Shown: positions 112 through 50,100 of the stretch, one piece after another
How positions within the stretch are numbered: position 1 is the stretch's first letter
Layout of the letters: each line of letters opens with the position of its first letter
NCBI RefSeq assembly: GCF_003384935.1
Contig: NZ_QTTQ01000010.1
Location: 186,001 to 250,000, forward strand
DNA: 64,000 nt
Source of the DNA: Lutibacter oceani
GTDB taxonomy: Bacteria; Bacteroidota; Bacteroidia; Flavobacteriales; Flavobacteriaceae
Direction of reading: 5' to 3'
The notes under the pieces: generated by a model
What the model saw: the letters and a program-made list of their open reading frames with translations, nothing else
Told to the model about the DNA's origin: nothing
The model's database searches: none
Translations under genes and position numbers: made by a program

Positions 112-558
112 TTATTTCATTAATAATTTTTGTTTTTTATCTAATTTCATTATAAACAAAACTAATTCAAATACTTGCTGTTTTATGTATTTAAAATTTT
201 GTATATAATTTTTTACTTCATTTAATAAAAGTTCATGTGTTTTTCTAAAATCATTCTCTTTTTTTAAATAAATATTTTCAAGAAGCAAAGCTAAATTCAT
301 TCTATGGTCTTTTATAGATTTTTTCAACTCACTTCCTAATTTACTTTCGTGAGCTATACCATTTAAAAACAGTTTTGCTTTATTAAAATTGTCAGTTTCA
401 CATAAACCTATAATATAATCTGTAAGTAATTCATTTAAAAATTCTTGCTCTATTTTTATGAATTCAATTTCTGATAGCCAATCGTTTGTTTCATTTTGTA
501 GCTGTTCAATACTACTATTGTAAAATGACTTGTTTTGTTTTGGGATAATTTGTTTCAT
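112..558 (-). CDS. Small helical protein of unknown function
   Basis: The 148-residue product is rich in Lys, Glu, Leu and Asn and looks almost wholly alpha-helical. It has no signal peptide, membrane segment or catalytic motif that I recognise, so it is probably cytosolic. A conserved-looking stretch reads GLCETDNFNKAKLFLNGIAH. The gene lies downstream of, and on the same strand as, the kinase/REC-CRP operon, but about 400 bases separate them. That gap holds its own tandem FNR-like operator and -7 element (886-950), so it is probably transcribed separately with a leader of more than 300 nt. The likely link to the neighbouring two-component system rests on this shared operator type. I do not recognise the family. 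Confidence 0.7.
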   Translation of the reverse strand: MKQIIPKQNKSFYNSSIEQLQNETNDWLSEIEFIKIEQEFLNELLTDYIIGLCETDNFNKAKLFLNGIAHESKLGSELKKSIKDHRMNLALLLENIYLKKENDFRKTHELLLNEVKNYIQNFKYIKQQVFELVLFIMKLDKKQKLLMK

Positions 559-885
559 AATTCATTAATTTTAAGAGTTTAAAGAATCCGAAAGGTTTAT
601 TTTCAGAACCCTTCGGATTCATTAAAGAAGATTAGTTAACTTGAATTACTTTTTTTGTGCCTTGTAGGTTTTCAAAACATTTAATCCAAAAACATCTAAA
701 TTTTTTGAGATACACAATCAATTCTCCATATTCACTCTCACCCTAATGTTCCAACTAAAATAAATACTTTTTGGTAAAGTATTTATTACTAATGGAGTTT
801 TAAAATTCGAGCTATAAAACCTTCTTCTTTTTCTTTTTACAAACCTTACTTAAGTAAAACCTATAATTGAACTTAATTTATGATA
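559..885 (-). other. Long 5' leader with two hairpins
   Basis: About 330 bases separate the predicted promoter (-7-like element 886-893) from the start codon at 558. I find no ORF of useful length on the minus strand here. Two inverted repeats stand out. One is AT-rich at 759-787, with 12-bp arms and a 5-nt loop, and minus-strand TTTTAG follows it. The other is at 585-619, with 13-bp arms, one mismatch and GC-containing stem ends, and ends about 27 nt before the start codon. The segment could be a structured 5' UTR. It could also be a short RNA of about 120-130 nt ending at the first hairpin, followed by an mRNA leader. Confidence 0.4.
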
Positions 886-950
886 CTAAAGTAGTTTAGC
901 GAATAACTAATTGCAATGACCACAATCATTTTTTAGACTGATTGTAATCA
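886..950 (-). promoter_or_regulatory. Tandem TGAT-N4-ATCA operator plus promoter
   Basis: Reading the minus strand, a first site (939-950, TGATTACAATCA) is followed after exactly 10 nt by a second (917-928, TGATTGTGGTCA). Then come 23 nt beginning TTGC, and TACTTTAG at 886-893. The sites resemble FNR/CRP-family boxes. The TTG just after the second site sits where a Bacteroidota -33 element would be, and TACTTTAG sits where the -7 element would be. The same architecture recurs at 43056, 48787 and 49299. The promoter points at the gene at 112-558. Confidence 0.65.
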
Positions 951-964
951 TATTTAATAAATAA

Positions 965-2017
965 TTATTGAATTTTTTGAAGCTTGTGCTTATTAATTAC
1001 TTTAATCGTTTTTGGAGTTATATCAATCAATTTTTCTTCTTTAAAATCAGATAGCGTTCTTATAAGTGTTTCTTTAGCTATACCTATGGAACTAGCTAAA
1101 TTACTGCGACTTATGGTTAGTTCGTTATCAAGTTTTAAAGGATATTTTTTTAATAAATCTAAAATTGTTGTAGCTGTTTTTTTTCTAACAGAATCATAAG
1201 CCAGTAATAAACATTTCTCATTTGCACCAATTAAATTTTCTGCCAGTAAATCAATAAAATTATAAATAACATGGGGATTGTTGTTTATTATAGCACTTAT
1301 TTCGTCTTTACTAATTTTGTATAATTGGGTACTAGTAATTGCTTTTGAATTTTCAAAGTGAGGCATTTTTTTAACAAAAGATAAATACCCAAAATACTGT
1401 TTATCTTTATAGTACCCGGTAATATATTCTTTTCCTAATTCATTTATTTTGTATGTTTTAACCGCACCTTTTTTAATTAAAAATATAAAGTTACTTTGGT
1501 TGTCTTCGCAATAAATGGTTTCGTTTATTTTATATTTAAATACTTTTTTTTGCTTTAAAAAAGTATCAAAGTTTTTAATATTTTTAAAAATTGGAGTTTG
1601 AGAGTTCAATTTTTCAGGTTCAAATTGTTTTTTGTTTTCAAACACTTCAACTCTTTTTATTCTACTTTCAATAGCTCTTAAAAGTTCAGATTCTTCAAAA
1701 GGTTTGCATATATAATCATCAGCTCCAAACTCCATTCCTTTTCTTAAATCGTCATGATGCGTTTTAGCTGTTAAAAAAATAAATGGGATTTGCTTTAGCT
1801 TTGGGTTTTTAGAAATAATTTGAAGTACTCCGTACCCATCTAAAACAGGCATTAAAATATCGCAAATAATAATATCAGGTAAAAAGGATGATGCCAAAGT
1901 AATTCCCTTTTTACCATTTTCTGCGGTTTTAACACGGTAATTTGCAAGTTCTAATATTTCAGCAGTATTTTCCCTTACAATTTTATCATCTTCAATTAAC
2001 AATACCTTTTTGTTCAT
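965..2017 (-). CDS. Response regulator: REC domain fused to CRP/FNR-type sensor and HTH
   Basis: Residues 1-125 form a receiver domain: acidic pocket E9-D10-D11, phosphoacceptor D53 in IICDILMP, the switch motif FLTAKT and the Lys in CKPF. A cyclic-nucleotide-binding-like barrel follows (about 150-260), then a Crp-type winged helix-turn-helix (about 295-345). The recognition helix reads GIAKETLIRTL and keeps the Glu and Arg (ExxxR) that contact TGA half-sites in FNR-family proteins. The few Cys residues do not suggest an FNR-style iron-sulfur cluster. I start at the ATG at 2017 (MNKKVLL) because the longer reading adds nine residues before the receiver fold. It overlaps the upstream kinase by 26 nt, which implies co-transcription and probable translational coupling. 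The output is probably transcriptional activation controlled by phosphorylation. Confidence 0.9.
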   Translation of the reverse strand: MNKKVLLIEDDKIVRENTAEILELANYRVKTAENGKKGITLASSFLPDIIICDILMPVLDGYGVLQIISKNPKLKQIPFIFLTAKTHHDDLRKGMEFGADDYICKPFEESELLRAIESRIKRVEVFENKKQFEPEKLNSQTPIFKNIKNFDTFLKQKKVFKYKINETIYCEDNQSNFIFLIKKGAVKTYKINELGKEYITGYYKDKQYFGYLSFVKKMPHFENSKAITSTQLYKISKDEISAIINNNPHVIYNFIDLLAENLIGANEKCLLLAYDSVRKKTATTILDLLKKYPLKLDNELTISRSNLASSIGIAKETLIRTLSDFKEEKLIDITPKTIKVINKHKLQKIQ

Positions 2018-3176
2018 AGCTTTCAATTTTAGGTAATTGTACATAAAAAGTTGTACCTTTTTTTTCTATACTTTTAAAAGAAATAGTTCCTTTTAAACAA
2101 TTTATATAGCCCTTAACAATATTAAGACCTATTCCAGTTCCGGGATAATAACCTACATTTCTTGCCCTAAAAAATCTTTTAAAAATTAGGCTTTGCTCGT
2201 CTTTTGGAATTCCTATCCCATTATCATTAATACTTATAAGTATCCCTTTTTTGTTTAAAAAGCAATCAATCTTAATTTCACTTTTTCCACTTGAATATTT
2301 TATAGCATTATATAATATATTTGTAATAATTATTTTGAAAATATTTGCATCTTGAAAAACGGTTACATTACAATTATTAATAAAAATAATTTTTTGATTA
2401 TTTAATAATAATGGTTTTGCATTTGTAATTAATTCGTTAATTAAATCACCTAAATTAAAATATGAAAAGGAAGGAATAATATTTCCAGATTCAATATTCT
2501 CCAGTGTTAACAAGCTGTCAATCATATTATTTAAATGGGTAATCATCATTTTAACTTTTGCTAAATGCTCATCTCTTTTTTCTGTTTTATCTAAATCTGC
2601 ATATTTAACAATTAGTTCTGAGGAAGTTAAAATAGCACTTAACGGAGTTTTAAATTCGTGTGAAGCAAGTGTAATAAATTTAGTTTTTAAATTGTTTAGT
2701 TCTTTTTCTTTATTTAAGGAAACCTTTAATTTTTTGATAGCATTTTCTAATTCAATATTTCTAAGTTTTACTTCTTCTTCTAATTTTACATTCAAATTGT
2801 CAATTTCAATTTCTTTATGTTTTCTTTTACTAATATCAGAAATTAAAGCCTTGTAATAAGGCTTTTTATCGTATTCAATTTTTCCAAAGCTAAGTTCAAT
2901 TGGTATTTTTACTCCATCTTTATTAATAACATAATCTTCTAAAAGTGATTTGAATTTAATTTTTTTAGGGTGCTCTATAAATTCGTTCAGCAGTGAATTA
3001 TTAGCAAATAATTCATCTGTGTTTTTAGCATAAATTTCCTCTGTAGTGTATCCAAAAATTTCAGATAATGGATTATTGCTCAACACAATTTCTTTCTTGC
3101 TATTACAAACAAGAATTCCAACTTGCATAGAGTCGAAACAAACTTTATAAAAGGCTTTTTTATCCTTTAGCATCAT
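1992..3176 (-). CDS. Cytosolic PAS-domain sensor histidine kinase
   Basis: The 394-residue protein has no membrane segment or signal peptide, so it should sense an internal signal. Residues 10-115 are a PAS domain, and 115-165 a coiled-coil linker. The HisKA dimerisation domain has its phospho-acceptor at H173 in LASHEFKTPLS. A HATPase_c domain shows the N box (NILYNAIKYSS), G1 (DNGIGIP) and G2 (GTGIGLNIVKG). It is the first gene of a two-gene operon, and its last codons overlap the start of the REC-CRP regulator, its presumed partner. One TGAT-N4-ATCA site with a -7-like element lies just upstream (3198-3240), which suggests autoregulation. The ligand of the PAS domain cannot be read from the sequence. 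Confidence 0.9.
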   Translation of the reverse strand: MMLKDKKAFYKVCFDSMQVGILVCNSKKEIVLSNNPLSEIFGYTTEEIYAKNTDELFANNSLLNEFIEHPKKIKFKSLLEDYVINKDGVKIPIELSFGKIEYDKKPYYKALISDISKRKHKEIEIDNLNVKLEEEVKLRNIELENAIKKLKVSLNKEKELNNLKTKFITLASHEFKTPLSAILTSSELIVKYADLDKTEKRDEHLAKVKMMITHLNNMIDSLLTLENIESGNIIPSFSYFNLGDLINELITNAKPLLLNNQKIIFINNCNVTVFQDANIFKIIITNILYNAIKYSSGKSEIKIDCFLNKKGILISINDNGIGIPKDEQSLIFKRFFRARNVGYYPGTGIGLNIVKGYINCLKGTISFKSIEKKGTTFYVQLPKIESYEQKGIVN

Positions 3177-3197
3177 AACAATTATAATTTATGATGC

Positions 3198-3240
3198 TAA
3201 AGTTATTGGTTACAGTTCTTCTATAGTATGATTTAAATCA
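3198..3240 (-). promoter_or_regulatory. Single TGAT-N4-ATCA operator plus -7-like element, kinase operon
   Basis: TGATTTAAATCA (3229-3240) is a perfect 12-bp palindrome. On the minus strand, 23 nt follow it and then TAACTTTAG (3197-3205). The sequence after the box (CATCATAAATTA) nearly repeats that at the 886-893 promoter (TATCATAAATTA). I see no second site 22 bp upstream. The promoter points at the PAS kinase / REC-CRP operon, so the regulator may control its own synthesis. Confidence 0.6.
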
Positions 3241-5364: not shown

Positions 5365-5844
5365 TTAAATTTCTCTAAATATTGAATGCATCAATCGAGT
5401 TTTATCGTTAATGCTTTCTTCTAAAGAAATCATTGTTTCTGTTCTGGAAACTCCATCAATATCATCAATTTCAAAAATTATCTCTTTTGCATGTGTAGTA
5501 TCTCTTGCTCTAATTTTACAAAAAACATTGTATTTACCAGCTGTAATATATGCAACTGTAATATTAGGAATTTTCCTTAATTCATTAACAACCTGCTTTG
5601 TTTTAGAAGTTTTAGCTAAGTAAATACCTACATGTGATATAAATGAATATCCCATTTTTTCATAATCTAAAGTTAAAGTAGATCCTTTTATAATCCCTTC
5701 ATCCTCCATTTTTTTAACCCTTACATGGATAGTACCTGCTGAAACTACTAACTTTTTTGCTATATCGGTAAATGGAGTTCTAGCATTTTCGATAAGAATA
5801 TCTAAAATTTGATGATCAATTTCATCTAAAATGAATTTTTTCAT
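5365..5844 (-). CDS. Lrp/AsnC family transcriptional regulator
   Basis: The 159 residues match the family length. The N-terminal helix-turn-helix (LDEIDHQILDILIENARTPF, then IAKKLVVSAGTIHVRVKKME) is followed by the RAM/AsnC ligand domain, which has ITAGKYNVFCKIRARD and GVSRTETMISLEE. Family members sense amino acids and form octamers. The position next to the branched-chain-type E1 gene suggests amino-acid catabolism, but the terminator between them means separate transcripts. The nearest Flavobacteriaceae regulators of this length are broad Lrp-like proteins. The effector is not known from sequence. Confidence 0.92.
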   Translation of the reverse strand: MKKFILDEIDHQILDILIENARTPFTDIAKKLVVSAGTIHVRVKKMEDEGIIKGSTLTLDYEKMGYSFISHVGIYLAKTSKTKQVVNELRKIPNITVAYITAGKYNVFCKIRARDTTHAKEIIFEIDDIDGVSRTETMISLEESINDKTRLMHSIFREI

Positions 5845-5916
5845 GATTTGTTTTTAATAGAAAATAAAAATAATTAGACAAATTTATTAAAAAAAATGGA
5901 TTATAGCATAAATTAT

Positions 5917-7026
5917 TTACGAATTTGATAATTTTAATTCATAAAAATTCAATTTTTCTGCATTTATGATGTTATACGTGTGAAAATTAGTGAGCTCTCC
6001 AATTTTTTCTATACACTTATACTTTATAAGCTTATTATTTTCGACTTTAAATTTATATTGAATCCCTACATCTGTAATGGTTTCAGAATTATTTTCAGGA
6101 ACTTTTAAATTTTTATAAATAATGTCTAAAAACATTTTATCATTATTTGGAATTTTAAAGTAAGGCTTAAAATTTGTGAAATTATTTGTGGTAGCAATAA
6201 AATATAAGCCATTTAACAAGGCATAAAAGTTATATTTCCTTGTAATTTCTCTTGAATAATCATCTTTAAAATGTCCAGCTTCAATTAAAATAGTGTTATG
6301 TCCTAATTTTTGAAAATTATCTCCTGTAGCTGTTGGGTAAAATTCATCGGTATATCTTCCTATACAATTAGGGATAAACTGCTGCAGGAAATCATTCATT
6401 GCAACAATTACGCTCATGGTCTCCATTCTACCTTTAGTAATAGTTCTTTCAACATCTTCTGAAGGTGCTAAAAAAGATATTGTAGCTGGGTTTTGGGTAC
6501 CCTCAACATTAAAAATATTCCGCTGATCGTGTAAATTGAAGCAAAATTTAGGATTAAAATTGTCTAACGTTGTTCTTAATAAATTGCTTTCAACAGCCTT
6601 TCTATCAACAGCATCTCTATTTAAATCAATTTTATTAGCATTTTCTCTTGTAAAGTTAATAGCTCCATCAGGATTTAATAATATTATAAATTGTAATGTA
6701 CAACGTTTTAGAATGTGCTCTTCAATAGCTTTTAAATCACCACTATTCTCAAAAAAGTTAAATAAATCAAATAATGCTTTTGTTCCTGTACTTTCGTTCC
6801 CATGCATTTGAGACCATGAAAGTATTTTTATTTTACCATTACCAATTGATATTTTATAAATAGGTATATTATTTTCAGAATATCCAATAATCTCTTTTTT
6901 AAATTTATTGGATAGTTTTTCTATAAGTGGTTTTATATCATTAAATAAAACCCTTCTTCCTGAAATATTTTGTTCAAAATTTAAGCTATACCAGTGCTCA
7001 ATCTTTTGTTTGTTTATCAAATTCAT
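5917..7026 (-). CDS. M14-family zinc carboxypeptidase
   Basis: The protein is about 369 residues from the ATG at 7026; a longer reading would begin inside the promoter. The zinc ligands are visible as HxxE in SWSQMHGNEST and the later His in FNLHDQRN. Substrate-binding Arg/Asn residues lie in NPDGAINFTRENA and IDLNRDAV, and the catalytic Glu in TILIEAGHF. There is no convincing signal peptide, so it may act in the cytoplasm or leave by an unrecognised route. The C-terminal 80 residues are not part of the peptidase core that I recognise. Peptide specificity (carboxypeptidase or murein-type) cannot be decided. A -7 element on the minus strand ends only four bases before the ATG, so its mRNA may be nearly leaderless. 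Confidence 0.87.
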   Translation of the reverse strand: MNLINKQKIEHWYSLNFEQNISGRRVLFNDIKPLIEKLSNKFKKEIIGYSENNIPIYKISIGNGKIKILSWSQMHGNESTGTKALFDLFNFFENSGDLKAIEEHILKRCTLQFIILLNPDGAINFTRENANKIDLNRDAVDRKAVESNLLRTTLDNFNPKFCFNLHDQRNIFNVEGTQNPATISFLAPSEDVERTITKGRMETMSVIVAMNDFLQQFIPNCIGRYTDEFYPTATGDNFQKLGHNTILIEAGHFKDDYSREITRKYNFYALLNGLYFIATTNNFTNFKPYFKIPNNDKMFLDIIYKNLKVPENNSETITDVGIQYKFKVENNKLIKYKCIEKIGELTNFHTYNIINAEKLNFYELKLSNS

Positions 7027-41780: not shown

Positions 41781-41823
41781 TGATTAATATCATTGCTAAT
41801 AATTCTAAATGAAAATAACTTTA
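41781..41823 (+). promoter_or_regulatory. TGAT-N4-ATCA operator plus -7-like element
   Basis: TGATTAATATCA (41781-41792) is followed by TTGC, making a 23-nt spacer in total, and TAACTTTA at 41816-41823. The layout matches the kinase operon promoter (3198-3240) exactly. The implied transcript start falls after the ATG at 41809, which supports the ATG at 41851 as the real start. Confidence 0.6.
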
Positions 41824-41850
41824 ATAGTAATTAATATAAAAATTACTATT

Positions 41851-42303
41851 ATGAAAAATTTAATAATGTTAATATCAATAATTTTTTTATTAACAAGTTG
41901 CAACAGTCAAAATACAAACAAAAAGGAAGAATTAACTAAGAACGATACAATTAAGCCAATTGAAAAAACAAAGGTTATTAAAGAATATGATGACCAAGGA
42001 AATTTAATAAGTATAGATTCCAGTTATTACTATTTTTATTCAACTATTAAAAATGATACACTCTTAGAAAAGGAAATATTTGATAAATTCAGAAACGATT
42101 TTAACCTTCAATTTAAATCGATTGACTCTATTTTAAAAAATGAATTTTTAATTAAATCGCCTTTAAATTTAAACGATTTTTACACAGACGATTTTTATAC
42201 GAAACATTTCAAATTTAATAATAATGAAATAGAAAAGTTATTTAAAGAAATGGATTCAATAAAAAATAAATTCTATAGTAAGCAGCAAAATAGTAAGCTA
42301 TAA
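41851..42303 (+). CDS. Lipoprotein of unknown function
   Basis: About 150 residues from ATG 41851, which begins a good lipoprotein signal (LIMLISIIFLLTSCNSQ). An upstream ATG at 41809 lies in the predicted promoter and adds residues that spoil the signal. The mature part is polar and Lys/Asp/Asn-rich, with no recognisable domain. One segment is KVIKEYDDQGNLISIDSSYY. It is preceded by the FNR-like operator shared with other exported proteins in this block. Confidence 0.7.
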   Translation: MKNLIMLISIIFLLTSCNSQNTNKKEELTKNDTIKPIEKTKVIKEYDDQGNLISIDSSYYYFYSTIKNDTLLEKEIFDKFRNDFNLQFKSIDSILKNEFLIKSPLNLNDFYTDDFYTKHFKFNNNEIEKLFKEMDSIKNKFYSKQQNSKL

Positions 42304-44574: not shown

Positions 44575-44608
44575 TGATAATTATCATGTTAACATCTGAC
44601 AGTCATCA
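44575..44608 (+). promoter_or_regulatory. Orphan tandem TGAT-N4-ATCA operator
   Basis: TGATAATTATCA (44575-44586), a 10-nt gap and TGACAGTCATCA (44597-44608) repeat the tandem layout. TAACTTTC follows only 6 nt later instead of 23, and no gene follows, only the beta-barrel tail remnant at 44640. The arm and spacer sequence is closest to the operator at 49299. Confidence 0.55.
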
Positions 44609-44737: not shown

Positions 44738-45442
44738 TTAATCCGTTTTAAAACACCAAACTTGACCAATAGTTTCTCCACCTTTATCATCTTTTACTAC
44801 CACCTTCCAATAATAATTTTTTGATGATTCTAAGGTCTGATTTAAATTAGTCTCTGAAAGATTTTCTACAACTTTTGTAGTAGGCGGATTTATATTATCT
44901 AAAAATACATCAAATAAAAGTGTATCATTTGAATCTACATCACTTGCAGTCCACTCTAAAGTAACTATCGCATCTTGTTCAATTGAATTTAGTTTAGGAT
45001 TAACTATTACTGGTAAAAATGGCAAATGATTAGATTCTCCATCTCCTTCTGTGTAAAAACTAAAAGTAGAAGAATACATACTTGTTAATCCTTTACTATC
45101 TTTTGCTAGTACCCTCCAATAATATGCTACTCCTTTGTTTAAAGTAACAGAAATTGTTGTGCTTGAGCTAGTCTTAGTTAGTAAATTTTGTGTAAACTGA
45201 TTATCTGTTGCTATTTGCATCTCATAACTAACAGTGTCACCGTCTGGGTCTGAAGCTGCATTCCATTGAAAATCTACCACATAATCAATACACAATTGAT
45301 TGTTTAAAGGTGTTGTTTGTACCGGAGTACTTGGTGCTTTATTTATTACAGGTGTTGGTTCTGGTACTGGGTAATCTTCTCCACTGCCTCCACAAGAACA
45401 AAGCATAAGACTAAAAGCCGTTATAAAAAAAATATTTTTCAT
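44738..45442 (-). CDS. Fibronectin-III-like lipoprotein
   Basis: The 234-residue lipoprotein (signal ending SLMLCSCGGSG) is followed by a Pro-rich linker and two Ig/fibronectin-like beta-sandwich domains. Each ends in the YYWRV or YYWKVVVKDDKGGE pattern (residues about 45-135 and 140-234). The domains also share a DPDGDTVSYEMQIATDNQF-type calcium-loop-like segment. It lies 2 bases after the LRR gene and is its operon partner. It is a clear paralog of the gene at 58256-58951. The likely role is binding at the cell surface. Confidence 0.85.
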   Translation of the reverse strand: MKNIFFITAFSLMLCSCGGSGEDYPVPEPTPVINKAPSTPVQTTPLNNQLCIDYVVDFQWNAASDPDGDTVSYEMQIATDNQFTQNLLTKTSSSTTISVTLNKGVAYYWRVLAKDSKGLTSMYSSTFSFYTEGDGESNHLPFLPVIVNPKLNSIEQDAIVTLEWTASDVDSNDTLLFDVFLDNINPPTTKVVENLSETNLNQTLESSKNYYWKVVVKDDKGGETIGQVWCFKTD

Positions 45443-45444
45443 GG

Positions 45445-48400
45445 CTATTTTTTAATTATTTTAAGTGTAATTACGTTTTCAACCAATATTTTTGCTAGAT
45501 AAACACCAACTGATTTATTTGTTAAATCTAATTGTACCTTTCCATTAGTAATAGGATAAGTTCTTCTTGAAATCAATTGAGAACTATTGTTATACAATTC
45601 AATAGTAACTTCTTTAAGATTTAAAGGGATGGCTAACTCAAATAAACCATCCGTAGGATTTGGATATACAGTTATCATATCAAATAACTGAATCGTTTCT
45701 GAGAAAACTCCTTCACAAGTAACTTCCGTTTTTACTTCAATTAAATCGCCATGTTTGGTATCAATATCAAAGATTGATGATATTGTTCTTAAAATAGGTA
45801 TTCCATTTACGTACACCTGATATGGAGCTGTTCCTTTTAGAATCTCTACCGTTGTTTTACTACTTTTTGATGTTAATTTACCAGAAACAATAGTACCTTC
45901 ACCTATGATAATATTATAGCAGTAAGGTGATGTTTTACCGGTCACAACAATGCATAGTTCATAGTTTCCTGGTGCTAAATTATCAATAGTTTTATTGGTA
46001 GTAAAATCATAAATGGTTCCATTAACACTAGCCATATAACTATATGAAGTTTGAGCAGTTATTATTATTTGACCATTATTTTTACCTGGGCAAGTTTCTG
46101 CTATTGTTTCAATTGTTAAATTATTGAAAGCCAAGGATATACATCCATTGGCATCAACATCTTCTCCTATTGGGGTATCTGAACATAAATCTTTATCATT
46201 CATAATTCCATCGCCATCATCGTCTAATTGGCTATCTGAACAGCCATTAGAATCTACTGCTTCTCCAATTGGTGTATTTGGGCAAATATCAATACTATTT
46301 AAAACCCCATCTTCATCCCCATCTTTATCCAATTGGTCATCAGAACAGCCTTTAGAATCTACTTCTTCTCCAATTGGTGTCTCTGGACATTGATCCAAAT
46401 TATTCATAATGCCATCCTCATCATCGTCTAGCTGACTTTCGGAACAACCATATGAATCTACTATTTCTCCAATTGGTGTCTCTGGGCATACATCTGTATC
46501 ATTCATAATGCCATCTTCATCATGGTCTAATTGGCTTTCTGAACAGCCATTAGAATCTACTGCTTCTCCATTTGGAGTATTTGGACATTGATCCAAATTA
46601 TTCATAATACCATCTTCATCATCGTCTATTTCATTTGAACAATCTAAGCTATAATTAGCGGTATCATCCTTTTCCCAATCAACAGGAATCTCATTAAATA
46701 TTGATTCATTAACTTCAATACAAACTAATTCAGAATTATTTAAGGCATTTAAATAAATTAATTTTGTGTTATTAGTTAGATCAATTGCTCCAGAAATCTG
46801 ATTATTTTTAATTATTAAATCTAATAGTTCAATATTATTAAAAACCTCTAAACTAGTCAGTTGATTTTCTTCACAATCTAAATAAATTAATTCTGGATTA
46901 TTACTTACATCTATACTTATCAGTTCATTTAGCCAAACCACCAATGTGGTTAATAAAATATTTTTACTTATATCAAGTGTTGTTAATTGGTTATTGTAAC
47001 AGTCTAATTCTATTAAAGCATTGTTTTTACTTACATCTATACTTGTCAAAAAATTGACTCCACAAAACAGCGTTTGCAAAGCTGTATTGCTGCTTAAATT
47101 TATACTTGAAATTTCGTTATCTTCACAATCTAAATATTCTAAAGCAACGTTCGTATTTAAATTTAAATTCTTAACATTATTTATCCAAATAACTAACCTC
47201 GTCAATAAAACATTTTTACTTACATCTATTGAAGTTAATTGATTCCAACTGCAGTCTAATTCAGTTAAAAGTATATTTTTACTTACATCTAAATTTGTGA
47301 GTGAATTTACACCACAGTATAATGTTTCTAAGGCTGTATTATTACTAATTTCTAAAATACTAAGTTCATTATCTTCACAATCTAAATATTGTAATAATTT
47401 ATTTGAATTTAAATCTATATTCGTTATTTTATTTAACCAAACTATTAATGAAGTTAATAATGTGTTTTTACTTACATCAATAAAAGTTAATTGATTGTTA
47501 TAACAGTCTAATTCTGTTAAAGCAGTATTTTTACTTACGTCTATATTTGTGAGTGAATTTACACCACAATATAAAGACTCTAAAGATGTGTTATTACTTA
47601 AATTTAAACTAGTTAGATAGTTTTCTTCACAGTCTAAATATTGCAAAGCTATATTTGTGTTTAAATTTAAACTTGTTAATTTGTTTAGCCAAACAATTAA
47701 TGCTATTAATTTGGTATTTTTACTCACATCAATTGAAGCTAATTGATTATTGTAACAGTCTAATTCATATAGGGAAACGTTTTTACTTACATCTAAATTT
47801 GTTAGTAAATTAATGCCACAATATAAAGATTCTAAAGCTGTATTGTTTGCTAAATATAAACTGCTAAGCTCATTTCCCTCACAATCTAAGTATACTAAAT
47901 TTTTATTGGAACTTAAATTTATACTTGTAATCTTATTGTAATAAAAATATAATTCCGTTAAAGCGTTATTGTTAGTTACATTTAAACTAGTTAGTAAATT
48001 TATACCGCAATACAGCGTTTCTAAATTTTTATTATTATCAGTATTTAAATAGGAAAGTTGGTTGTCATCACAATCTAAATATATCAAATCTAGATTTTTG
48101 CTAACATCTAAACTTGTCAGTTCATTTAACCAAACCACTAGAGTTGTTAATTCAGTATTTTTACTTACATCAATTGTGGTTATTTGATTGCTAAAACAAT
48201 CTACTTCAAGTAAAGCTATATTTTTACTTAAATTTAAATTTGAAAGAAAATTTAAACCACAATATAAAGTTTTTAAAGCAGTATTATTACTTATATCTAA
48301 CTCTGAAAGTTGATTATCTTCACAATCCAAATATATTAAAGCTAAATTTTTGCTAACATCTAAACTTAAAAGTTGATTTTTCCAAAGTGTTAATTGTTTT

Positions 48401-48729
48401 AATGCTGTGTTTTTACTTAAATTTATTGTAGAAATTAGATTATCAAAGCAGTTTAATTCTGTAAGTGCAATAAAATCTTCAATTCCAGTTAAATCACTAA
48501 TACCCTTTGACTCTAAATCTAGTGAATTGATTTTATTAATATTACTTGTTAGCACATAATTATCCAATACATTATCATACCCTAAATCTATTAATGCTTG
48601 CTCAAAATTGTTATCAGGCACAAATGTTTGGTCTATAAAAGTAATTTTAGAAAAGGAGTTACTTATTTTAGAAAAGGCATTACTTATTAAAAAAAATGCT
48701 ATTACGAAGGTTATATAATTATTTTTCAA
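45445..48729 (-). CDS. Large LRR / thrombospondin-3-type T9SS surface protein
   Basis: The 1094-residue protein has a signal peptide and residues about 60-700 made of 21-residue leucine-rich repeats. They cycle in an 84-residue super-repeat of four types (marked by DCYNNQ, VWLN, DCEDN and YCGVN). One position has lost a unit. Five Asp-rich thrombospondin-3/OmpA-like calcium repeats of about 33 residues follow (DDDEDGIMNNLDQCP, VDSNGCS), then a beta-domain. The protein ends with a T9SS type A sorting domain (TVYPNPTDGLFELAIP, then LTNKSVGVYLAKI and TLKIIKK). It should be exported across the outer membrane and attached as an adhesin-like protein. The promoter at 48756-48820 carries the shared tandem operator. 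Confidence 0.9.
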   Translation of the reverse strand: MKNNYITFVIAFFLISNAFSKISNSFSKITFIDQTFVPDNNFEQALIDLGYDNVLDNYVLTSNINKINSLDLESKGISDLTGIEDFIALTELNCFDNLISTINLSKNTALKQLTLWKNQLLSLDVSKNLALIYLDCEDNQLSELDISNNTALKTLYCGLNFLSNLNLSKNIALLEVDCFSNQITTIDVSKNTELTTLVVWLNELTSLDVSKNLDLIYLDCDDNQLSYLNTDNNKNLETLYCGINLLTSLNVTNNNALTELYFYYNKITSINLSSNKNLVYLDCEGNELSSLYLANNTALESLYCGINLLTNLDVSKNVSLYELDCYNNQLASIDVSKNTKLIALIVWLNKLTSLNLNTNIALQYLDCEENYLTSLNLSNNTSLESLYCGVNSLTNIDVSKNTALTELDCYNNQLTFIDVSKNTLLTSLIVWLNKITNIDLNSNKLLQYLDCEDNELSILEISNNTALETLYCGVNSLTNLDVSKNILLTELDCSWNQLTSIDVSKNVLLTRLVIWINNVKNLNLNTNVALEYLDCEDNEISSINLSSNTALQTLFCGVNFLTSIDVSKNNALIELDCYNNQLTTLDISKNILLTTLVVWLNELISIDVSNNPELIYLDCEENQLTSLEVFNNIELLDLIIKNNQISGAIDLTNNTKLIYLNALNNSELVCIEVNESIFNEIPVDWEKDDTANYSLDCSNEIDDDEDGIMNNLDQCPNTPNGEAVDSNGCSESQLDHDEDGIMNDTDVCPETPIGEIVDSYGCSESQLDDDEDGIMNNLDQCPETPIGEEVDSKGCSDDQLDKDGDEDGVLNSIDICPNTPIGEAVDSNGCSDSQLDDDGDGIMNDKDLCSDTPIGEDVDANGCISLAFNNLTIETIAETCPGKNNGQIIITAQTSYSYMASVNGTIYDFTTNKTIDNLAPGNYELCIVVTGKTSPYCYNIIIGEGTIVSGKLTSKSSKTTVEILKGTAPYQVYVNGIPILRTISSIFDIDTKHGDLIEVKTEVTCEGVFSETIQLFDMITVYPNPTDGLFELAIPLNLKEVTIELYNNSSQLISRRTYPITNGKVQLDLTNKSVGVYLAKILVENVITLKIIKK

Positions 48730-49298: not shown

Positions 49299-49363
49299 TG
49301 ATAATTATCATGTTACTAATTGATAACGATCATTGCAATAAATTTAATCTCTGTATAATTTTG
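49299..49363 (+). promoter_or_regulatory. Tandem TGAT-N4-ATCA operator plus promoter, DUF6799 gene
   Basis: TGATAATTATCA (49299-49310), a 10-nt gap and TGATAACGATCA (49321-49332) are followed by 23 nt starting TTGC and a good -7 element TAATTTTG (49356-49363). This is the clearest copy of the shared architecture. The TTG right after the second site is 20 nt from the -7 box, so the proximal site abuts the -33 position. Confidence 0.7.
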
Positions 49364-49419: not shown

Positions 49420-50100
49420 ATGAAAAAAGTAGTAATTTTTTTAATTTTTATAGTTCTGGGAACTATTGGATTAACAGCTCAAGATAAAGATCAAATTAAA
49501 GCTCAGGATCAAGACAGAGACAGAGATCGTGTAATGTTAGTTGACGGTGATCTTCTTCAAATTAGAGATCGTGATCAGATTAGATTACAAGATAAAATAA
49601 CATTAAACGATGGTACAGTAGTAAATCCAGATGGGACTTATGTAACAAAAGATCAAATTAGATTGCGTTTAAGGGATGGTTCTTGTTTAGATAGTGATGG
49701 TGTTTTATATAGAAATGAGTATCAGTACAGGTATAAAGTTCAACAAGAAAACAAAGGACTATCAGAAGCTCAAATTCAGACACGAAATCAAAATAGATAT
49801 CAAATAATGATGATTGACGGTCAAGTTTACCAAATTAAAAATCAGGAACAAAACCAAATTCAGCAACAAATGCAACTTGGAAATGGCGTAACTATAAATC
49901 CAGACGGGACTTATCAAAATCGCGATAGAAAACAACTAAGACTGCAAGATGGTGAATGTATAAATATGGATGGTCAACTATTTAAAAACACCTATATGCA
50001 AAGAAAAATGGTGGCACAAAAAAATGCTAAAGCAATTAAAACCATGACAAAGAAAAAAGTGCAAAAGAAAGCAACTGGCACACGTAATAAGAAAAATTAG
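49420..50100 (+). CDS. DUF6799-domain exported protein
   Basis: The 226-residue protein has a signal peptide (MKKVVIFLIFIVLGTIGLTA). Two DUF6799-like units follow, each with the order MxxDGxxxQI, LxxGxxxNPDGTY and LRLxDGxCxxxDGxL (RVMLVDGDLLQIRDRDQIRL; MMIDGQVYQIKNQEQ; LRLQDGECINMDGQLF). A Lys-rich tail (KTMTKKKVQKKATGTRNKKN) ends the protein. The segments between repeats are rich in Gln, Asp and Arg. The function of the domain is unknown. It is preceded by the strongest tandem operator and followed by a beta-barrel gene. A shorter relative is at 42500. Confidence 0.75.
   Translation: MKKVVIFLIFIVLGTIGLTAQDKDQIKAQDQDRDRDRVMLVDGDLLQIRDRDQIRLQDKITLNDGTVVNPDGTYVTKDQIRLRLRDGSCLDSDGVLYRNEYQYRYKVQQENKGLSEAQIQTRNQNRYQIMMIDGQVYQIKNQEQNQIQQQMQLGNGVTINPDGTYQNRDRKQLRLQDGECINMDGQLFKNTYMQRKMVAQKNAKAIKTMTKKKVQKKATGTRNKKN

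Follow-up and report, generated by a model that had tools for sequence, protein, structure and literature searches.

Among the closest described systems, FNR proper carries an N-terminal Cys cluster for a 4Fe-4S centre, FixL-FixJ-FixK is a rhizobial cascade, DosS/T-DosR controls the mycobacterial dormancy regulon with a NarL-type output domain in DosR, and RpoS is known for general stress control; we know of no RpoS itself in Bacteroidota. Here we compare with these systems a kinase-regulator locus (positions 965 to 3,240) in a 64,000-nucleotide stretch of the Lutibacter oceani genome (the window; source genome G000, 3.38 Mb), where a PAS histidine kinase shares an operon with a regulator that joins a receiver domain to a CRP/FNR-type output half (REC-CRP). 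The listings of our searches of an open-access library, where absence is not proof, showed no article about a Bacteroidota regulator of the receiver-CRP/FNR kind. Judging from sequence comparison, we think it likely that this regulator, a member of clade A, and its paralogue B are two-component FNR-like activators acting via single or tandem TGAT-N4-ATCA sites, with A running its own operon and the following operon for a 148-amino-acid (148-aa) protein, often headed by hsp20, and that the regulon is of the stress or dormancy type.

Regulator A resembles FNR and FixK in its cyclic-nucleotide (cNMP)-type barrel and HTH_Crp domain, in the Glu and Arg of its recognition helix, in the putative TGAT-N4-ATCA operator and in its -41.5 placement. 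Unlike them, it has an N-terminal receiver and operators paired 22 bp apart, and FNR of Lutibacter is a separate gene. The likeness to FixL-FixJ-FixK lies in the FixL-like PAS domains of the B and C kinases and in the output half, whose solved relatives include FixK2, whereas here receiver and FNR-like output are in one protein and the A kinase is without the FixL-type His (0/11). As for DosS/T-DosR, two-component control would include Hsp20, Usp and perhaps a ribosome-hibernation protein, although these targets are analogous only and the Lutibacter output domain is HTH_Crp. Finally, an extra primary-type sigma factor under a stress-type regulator recalls RpoS-type control, but the putative stress sigma factor is here a paralogue of the housekeeping sigma factor, present in 9/38 Lutibacter genomes.

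Domain organization of the kinase and the regulator

The clade A response regulator is encoded at 965-2044 on the minus strand, as indicated by the open reading frame (ORF) list, Pfam, tree and alignment; a possible true start is at 2017, with a protein beginning MNKKVLLIEDD. Pfam gave Response_reg (8e-27), cNMP_binding (8e-15) and HTH_Crp_2 (2e-10), and the barrel together with the HTH_Crp domain places the protein in the CRP/FNR superfamily. The gene overlaps that of the PAS-HisKA-HATPase histidine kinase (1992-3176, minus strand; Pfam PAS_9, HisKA and HATPase_c). The receiver is intact, with the acidic residues E18-D20, D62, T92 and K114, and these complete receiver residues and the HisKA-HATPase kinase in the same operon are what is seen in a two-component response regulator. 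Eleven of the 13 clade A copies keep the acidic residues, D62, T/S92 and K114, while the receivers of genomes G033 and G025 are degenerate.

The recognition helix reads GIAKETLIR, with E325 and R329 invariant among 15 aligned family members. Among the matches listed, solved relatives of the barrel-HTH half are of the CRP/FNR type, with a few other cyclic-nucleotide-binding proteins ranked lower. No FNR-type N-terminal Cys cluster was seen on reading the sequence of regulator A, the N-terminus of which is the receiver, and a DosR-type (NarL) output domain is not present in it, the output being HTH_Crp in Pfam.

Putative operators and promoters in the window

The putative operator of the kinase-regulator operon, TGATTTAAATCA, was found once in the window, at 3229-3240 (operators are given without strand), 23 bp from a -7 box-like TAACTTTA (3198-3205, minus strand). 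A perfect site appeared by chance in the 170 bp before the kinase in 0.6% of 2000 dinucleotide shuffles. A second promoter lies 3' of the regulator gene and has a tandem at 917-950 with sites 22 bp apart (ten bases between): a distal putative operator TGATTACAATCA (939-950) and a proximal one, TGATTGTGGTCA (917-928, one mismatch), the latter 23 bp from a -7 box-like TACTTTAG (886-893, minus strand). Chance tandem pairs with at most one mismatch were seen in 0/2000 shuffles of the region 3' of the regulator, and likewise in 0/2000 of the region before 49420. In the latter, a distal TGATAATTATCA (49299-49310) and a proximal TGATAACGATCA (49321-49332), backed by shuffles and by the promoters of relatives, stand 23 bp from TAATTTTG (49356-49363), a perfect TAnnTTTG; the putative target is a DUF6799 protein, the start of which looks by eye like a signal peptide (49420-50100, plus strand). 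Moreover, a putative operator TGATTAATATCA (41781-41792) lies 23 bp before a TAACTTTA-type box upstream of a putative lipoprotein gene (41809-42303, plus strand), a probable target the true start of which is probably an internal Met.

TGATN4ATCA occurs nine times in the window against 2.0 expected, a number reached in 0/100 shuffles, and 170 times in the G000 genome against 79 for the reversed pattern. Operator/TAnnTTTG pairs at gaps of 8 to 38 in G000 number 20, of which 11 have the gap 23 (0 and 1 in the reversed control). Since the -7 box TAnnTTTG of Flavobacterium psychrophilum spans -12 to -5 (PMC9723704), the 23-bp gap would centre the kinase operator and the proximal tandem site at about -41.5 and the upstream copy at about -63.5. 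This placement follows from the -7 box position, and TGAT-N4-ATCA at about -41.5 is the arrangement of FNR/FixK-type operators.

These data agree with an original prediction for this DNA in the anatomy of the PAS kinase and the REC-CRP/FNR regulator, in the FNR-like Glu and Arg of the helix (KETLIR) and in the single perfect site of the kinase operon. Of the further sites, the 49299/49321 pair is real, while 43056, 44575 and 48809 are weaker, as no -7 box at 23 bp was found for these three with one mismatch allowed in all; the tandem promoter at 917-950 had been missed.

Three paralogous systems in Lutibacter

The regulator was searched for in 60 relatives. In the REC-CRP tree, clade A (this copy) comprises 13 Lutibacter loci, clade B 25 loci in 24 genomes and clade C 17 loci. 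Not included in these counts are further Lutibacter copies in G022 and G023, a copy from G014 on a long branch, and fragments, and five loci without a full-length REC-CRP frame (L043, L044, L244, L245 and L248) were left out of the tree. G025 and G033 are on long branches, and their placement in clade A is backed by the neighbouring hsp20/148-aa genes. A kinase is present at 11 of the 13 clade A loci (G033 is without one and G025 is at a contig edge). The kinase-promoter site is kept in all 11, nine perfect and two with one mismatch, and the tandem 3' of the regulator in 12/13 with at most one mismatch, the thirteenth, in G020, having one mismatch in each half.

The gap between operator and TAnnTTTG is 23 in 11/11 A kinase promoters, 12/12 A tandems scored (of 13), 19/19 B Usp promoters scored (of 25) and 13/13 C Usp promoters scored (of 17). 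The -7 box could have one mismatch, and only loci whose operator fits the stated pattern were scored; gaps other than 23 gave few matches at these promoters. With this fixed-spacing site in every orthologous kinase promoter, the proposal that the kinase operon controls itself is probably right. By sequence, the Lutibacter REC-CRP systems are three paralogues (A, B and C) with closely similar operators.

For the wider family, 321 pattern matches were obtained in GTDB genomes; a relative is encoded at 166 of them, from which the top 80 were retained. The 912 kb around these best 80 of 166 contain 108 copies of TGATN4ATCA and 8 of the reversed pattern, a difference that coding bias may explain in part, and a Usp gene is adjacent in only 10 of the 80 loci.

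Co-occurrence of tandem sites and REC-CRP regulators

The 38 Lutibacter genomes contain 132 tandem pairs with sites 22 bp apart (10-bp gap), whereas the reversed pattern gives 4. When the gap was left free from 2 to 32 there were 82 perfect pairs, and 49 of the 75 pairs listed have the gap 10 (hand counts). Within Lutibacter, the regulator family and tandem sites co-occur: all 27 genomes that encode a full-length A or B have tandems, compared with 1/7 genomes that encode neither (Fisher 5e-6, G015 left outside), and with the 62%-complete G015 counted against the association the Fisher value is 1.7e-5. Genomes with a damaged or fused copy were placed in neither group, and all three have tandems (G006 3, G009 2 and G012 1). 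An FNR orthologue with the helix GTATESAIR, which keeps the same E and R, is present in 38/38 genomes; because the tandems track A/B while FNR is in all 38, the tandem sites point to A/B over FNR, and the REC-CRP proteins probably read them. The co-occurrence says less about single sites, the kinase's own included, which FNR could also read.

Two ways of assigning sites were tried and given up. A 1-bp register (22 for cco/FNR, 23 for REC-CRP) was rejected as a binder code, as some genomes without REC-CRP match the G000 count of 23-bp promoters; in others these promoters are fewer (G027 5, G004 2). Telling A from B sites by sequence was ruled out by the varying central four bases and the shared helix contacts.

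The promoters of genes that by eye resemble ccoN and ccoI (L264, L279-L298) carry TGATN4ATCA mostly with a 22-bp gap, which puts the operator one base nearer the -7 box than at REC-CRP promoters. In the cco/FNR region of 21 genomes, 23 gaps are of 22, two of 23 and three of 24. An arrangement TGATN4ATCACAAAACTAA...TACTTTTG with a 22-bp gap recurs in many genomes of the genus. In G000, an operator with a 23-bp gap (L272, G000:C1:98100) precedes an operon of ferredoxin and 2-oxoacid:ferredoxin oxidoreductase-like genes (by eye), and similar promoters are present in G032, G030, G012 and G017. Since no REC-CRP was found in G017, another CRP/FNR protein presumably reads the L272 site.

The operon downstream of regulator A

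The putative conserved target of the tandem beside regulator A is the 148-aa gene (112-558, minus strand). Its product, for which there is no Pfam family, is predicted to form three long helices (pLDDT, the model's confidence score, 89), and a fold search with the model gave no matches at E <= 0.001. The leader (559-885, minus strand) has a probable, strongly eroded hsp20 remnant with a profile E of 0.0027, which is weak alone; the remnant is clear at the corresponding place in G031 (80% over 61 aa) and G016 (63% over 43 aa). A terminator-like hairpin, GAATCCGAAGG...CCTTTCGGATTC-TTT (584-620, minus strand), precedes the 148-aa gene, and similar hairpins are found in the leaders of relatives. 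An intact hsp20 lies between tandem and 148-aa gene in 12 of the 24 leaders examined, in genomes with and without A, and also in G020 and G025. The usual target of the tandem seems to be hsp20 followed by the 148-aa gene, with hsp20 decayed in the window.

A small RNA in the 300-nt leader 559-885 was considered: the leader folds well (z -3.1), but the hsp20 remnant sits where relatives have an intact hsp20, and we prefer gene decay over a structured RNA. Rfam at the gathering threshold gave only two tRNAs in the whole window.

The 148-aa gene has a tandem in 21 of the 22 A/B genomes scored, G020 missing the cut with one mismatch per half, and in the C-only genomes G018 and G036 it has a single site only. 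Weak relatives of the 148-aa protein (E ~0.001) adjoin REC-CRP genes in three distant Bacteroidota loci (L112 7058-7441, L143 4398-4769 and L144 7058-7429).

Surface-protein genes, the second sigma factor and paralogue B

The DUF6799 gene is present in 10/38 genomes, all with B and only five with A. G000, G030 and G032 retain its tandem, G029 has a triplet, and G026, G010 and G005 have other sites instead; the 200-bp stretches searched in G008, G024 and G011 contained no tandem. G030 and G029 have B but no A and keep the tandem, while G008, G024 and G011, where it is missing, have both. The claim that this copy (A) drives a set of surface proteins is therefore not upheld for DUF6799, which is better assigned to paralogue B, and B, alone or together with A, is the more likely regulator of the surface-protein genes.

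The 41781 site and its arrangement are kept in G032 and G030. No counterpart of the 43056 site was seen upstream of the corresponding gene in two relatives (L265, L266), and 44575 and 48809 flank the genes at 44738-48729, which are not at that place in the same relatives. The tandems at 44575-44608 and 49299-49332 look alike and flank these genes, missing there in G032 and G030; the 44738-48729 genes are perhaps an insertion with a copied promoter.

At the B locus of G000, sites stand before Usp, a relative of the 148-aa protein (33% identity) and a neighbouring 128-aa ORF. A tandem of this locus lies ~0.8 kb upstream of a gene for a ribosome hibernation factor (Pfam), with no ORF of at least 60 aa in between (L041, about 5835-6632). 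Between a lipoprotein-like gene and a baeRF gene (Pfam) there are two sites with a spacing of 23 bp. A second, faster-changing primary-type sigma gene (G000:C3:635213-636070 in G000) is present in nine of the 38 genomes, all with B (L299-L305, L318 and L329). A tandem with a 23-bp gap precedes it in 9/9 (eight with one mismatch in all, G008 with two), whereas no tandem was seen before the 22 housekeeping-type sigma copies read; the housekeeping copy was recognized by its presence throughout and its slow change.

Sensor domains and altered relays

The PAS domains of the B and C kinases have FixL as best match (E 5e-11 and 2e-11, respectively), and the FixL His column, which we take to be the proximal heme ligand, is kept in 22/25 B kinases (two Tyr, one gap) and 17/17 C kinases. 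The FixL-like PAS domains with this His make heme/O2 a plausible signal of B and C. The PAS domain of the A kinase in the window is nearest to DosP (3e-8) but is without the FixL/DosP His, and all 11 A kinases have a gap at that column.

Some A loci have lost parts of the relay. The G009 locus (L044, G009:C16, 3512-4717) encodes a PAS-CRP fusion with 40% identity in the kinase PAS part and 58% in the CRP part; the catalytic domains of the kinase and the receiver are absent, and the DNA-binding part and the downstream tandem are kept. G033 has lost the kinase and has Ser in place of D62, and in G012 there is no kinase before the regulator, the reading frame of which breaks in the linker. B was not found in these three genomes in the search of relatives, and the tandem is kept in all of them.

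Discussion

The domains, receiver residues, operator positions and spacing, conservation and co-occurrence were read from the sequence, and together they suggest direct binding, activation rather than repression, dependence on phosphorylation, a signal and an assignment of paralogues to sites. Specifically, a histidine kinase would phosphorylate the receiver of the FNR-like protein, which would bind TGAT-N4-ATCA as a dimer and activate from about -41.5, the position of class II activator sites; a second dimer 22 bp upstream (-63.5) would reinforce strong targets. Clade A would activate its own kinase-regulator operon via the single site 3229-3240 and the following (hsp20/)148-aa operon via the tandem 917-950. 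A and B would jointly run a stress- or dormancy-type regulon of Hsp20, the three-helix protein, Usp and the second primary-type sigma factor, and probably also the ribosome hibernation factor and the baeRF release-factor relative.

Several points weigh against this proposal. The genomes are related, so the co-occurrence counts are not independent and kinship inflates them. G015 (62% complete) has four tandems and no REC-CRP detected, and G017 has one; four of the seven genomes without A/B (G004, G013, G017 and G027) are only 86-88% complete, and G033 and G025 were counted as full-length, yet their receivers are decayed. The helix contacts are common to A, B, C and FNR, so that by sequence their sites cannot be separated, and 23-bp-gap promoters also occur in genomes without REC-CRP (G017 13 and G007 8, compared with 11 in G000). 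Finally, as decayed, damaged or fused copies keep their tandems, phosphorylation may not be needed for binding. The persistence of tandems despite a lost kinase, a decayed receiver or a PAS-CRP fusion would also fit a regulator that represses, or that binds irrespective of phosphorylation. We regard this as unlikely, as the fixed -41.5 in all scored promoters of the three paralogues is the class II activator position and a repressor does not need a single register.

The sites might instead be operators of FNR or another one-component CRP/FNR protein, with REC-CRP A merely among them, and FNR with the same contacts in every genome, TGATN4ATCA at ccoN/ccoI promoters (by eye) and the 23-bp-gap promoters of genomes without REC-CRP are in line with this. 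We give it a low probability, since tandems were not found in six of the seven genomes with FNR but no A/B (four of them 86-88% complete) and the cco/FNR region mostly has a 22-bp gap whereas REC-CRP loci have 23. With respect to the surface sites, we lean towards 41781 and 49299/49321 belonging to B, with A controlling only its own and the adjacent hsp20/148-aa operons. All ten DUF6799 genomes have B and five have A, the tandem is kept in the A-less G030 and G029, and G030 also keeps the 41781 site; however, A and B share their helix contacts and both are in G000, so both may bind, and G008, G024 and G011 have B yet are without the DUF6799 tandem. Returning to A and B as two-component activators, the earlier idea that an FNR-like REC-CRP protein reads TGAT-N4-ATCA is probably right, given the co-occurrence of tandems with A/B. 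It had also been allowed that another FNR-family protein is the real binder; the paralogue B suits the surface genes better, while FNR is less favoured for the tandem sites. In our view there is good support for the core of the original prediction as regards the kind of system, yet this system is one member of a paralogue family, in which B has the better claim to the surface genes.

More speculatively, Bacteroidota might have compressed a FixL-FixJ-FixK-style relay into a heme-PAS kinase and a receiver-FNR fusion. In Lutibacter the duplicated relay would be an RpoS/DosR-like master switch of the phylum, set over a dormancy regulon (Hsp20, Usp, hibernation factor and release-factor relatives) and a duplicated primary sigma factor via paired -41.5/-63.5 operators, and the A branch would have lost the heme ligand and in some lineages be in the course of being unplugged from phosphorylation (kinase gone, decayed receiver, PAS-CRP fusion). 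We put this forward as a tentative scenario.

If the two-component reading of A and B is true, it would give a definable stress regulon of Bacteroidota with a readable operator design, i.e. one or two TGAT-N4-ATCA sites placed 23 bp from the -7 box, as well as a handle on how a receiver domain switches an FNR-type protein. The natural variants with a lost kinase, a decayed receiver or a PAS-CRP fusion allow the role of phosphorylation to be tested, and the second primary-type sigma factor, preceded by the same operator, is a candidate that can be tested for a role in general stress control.

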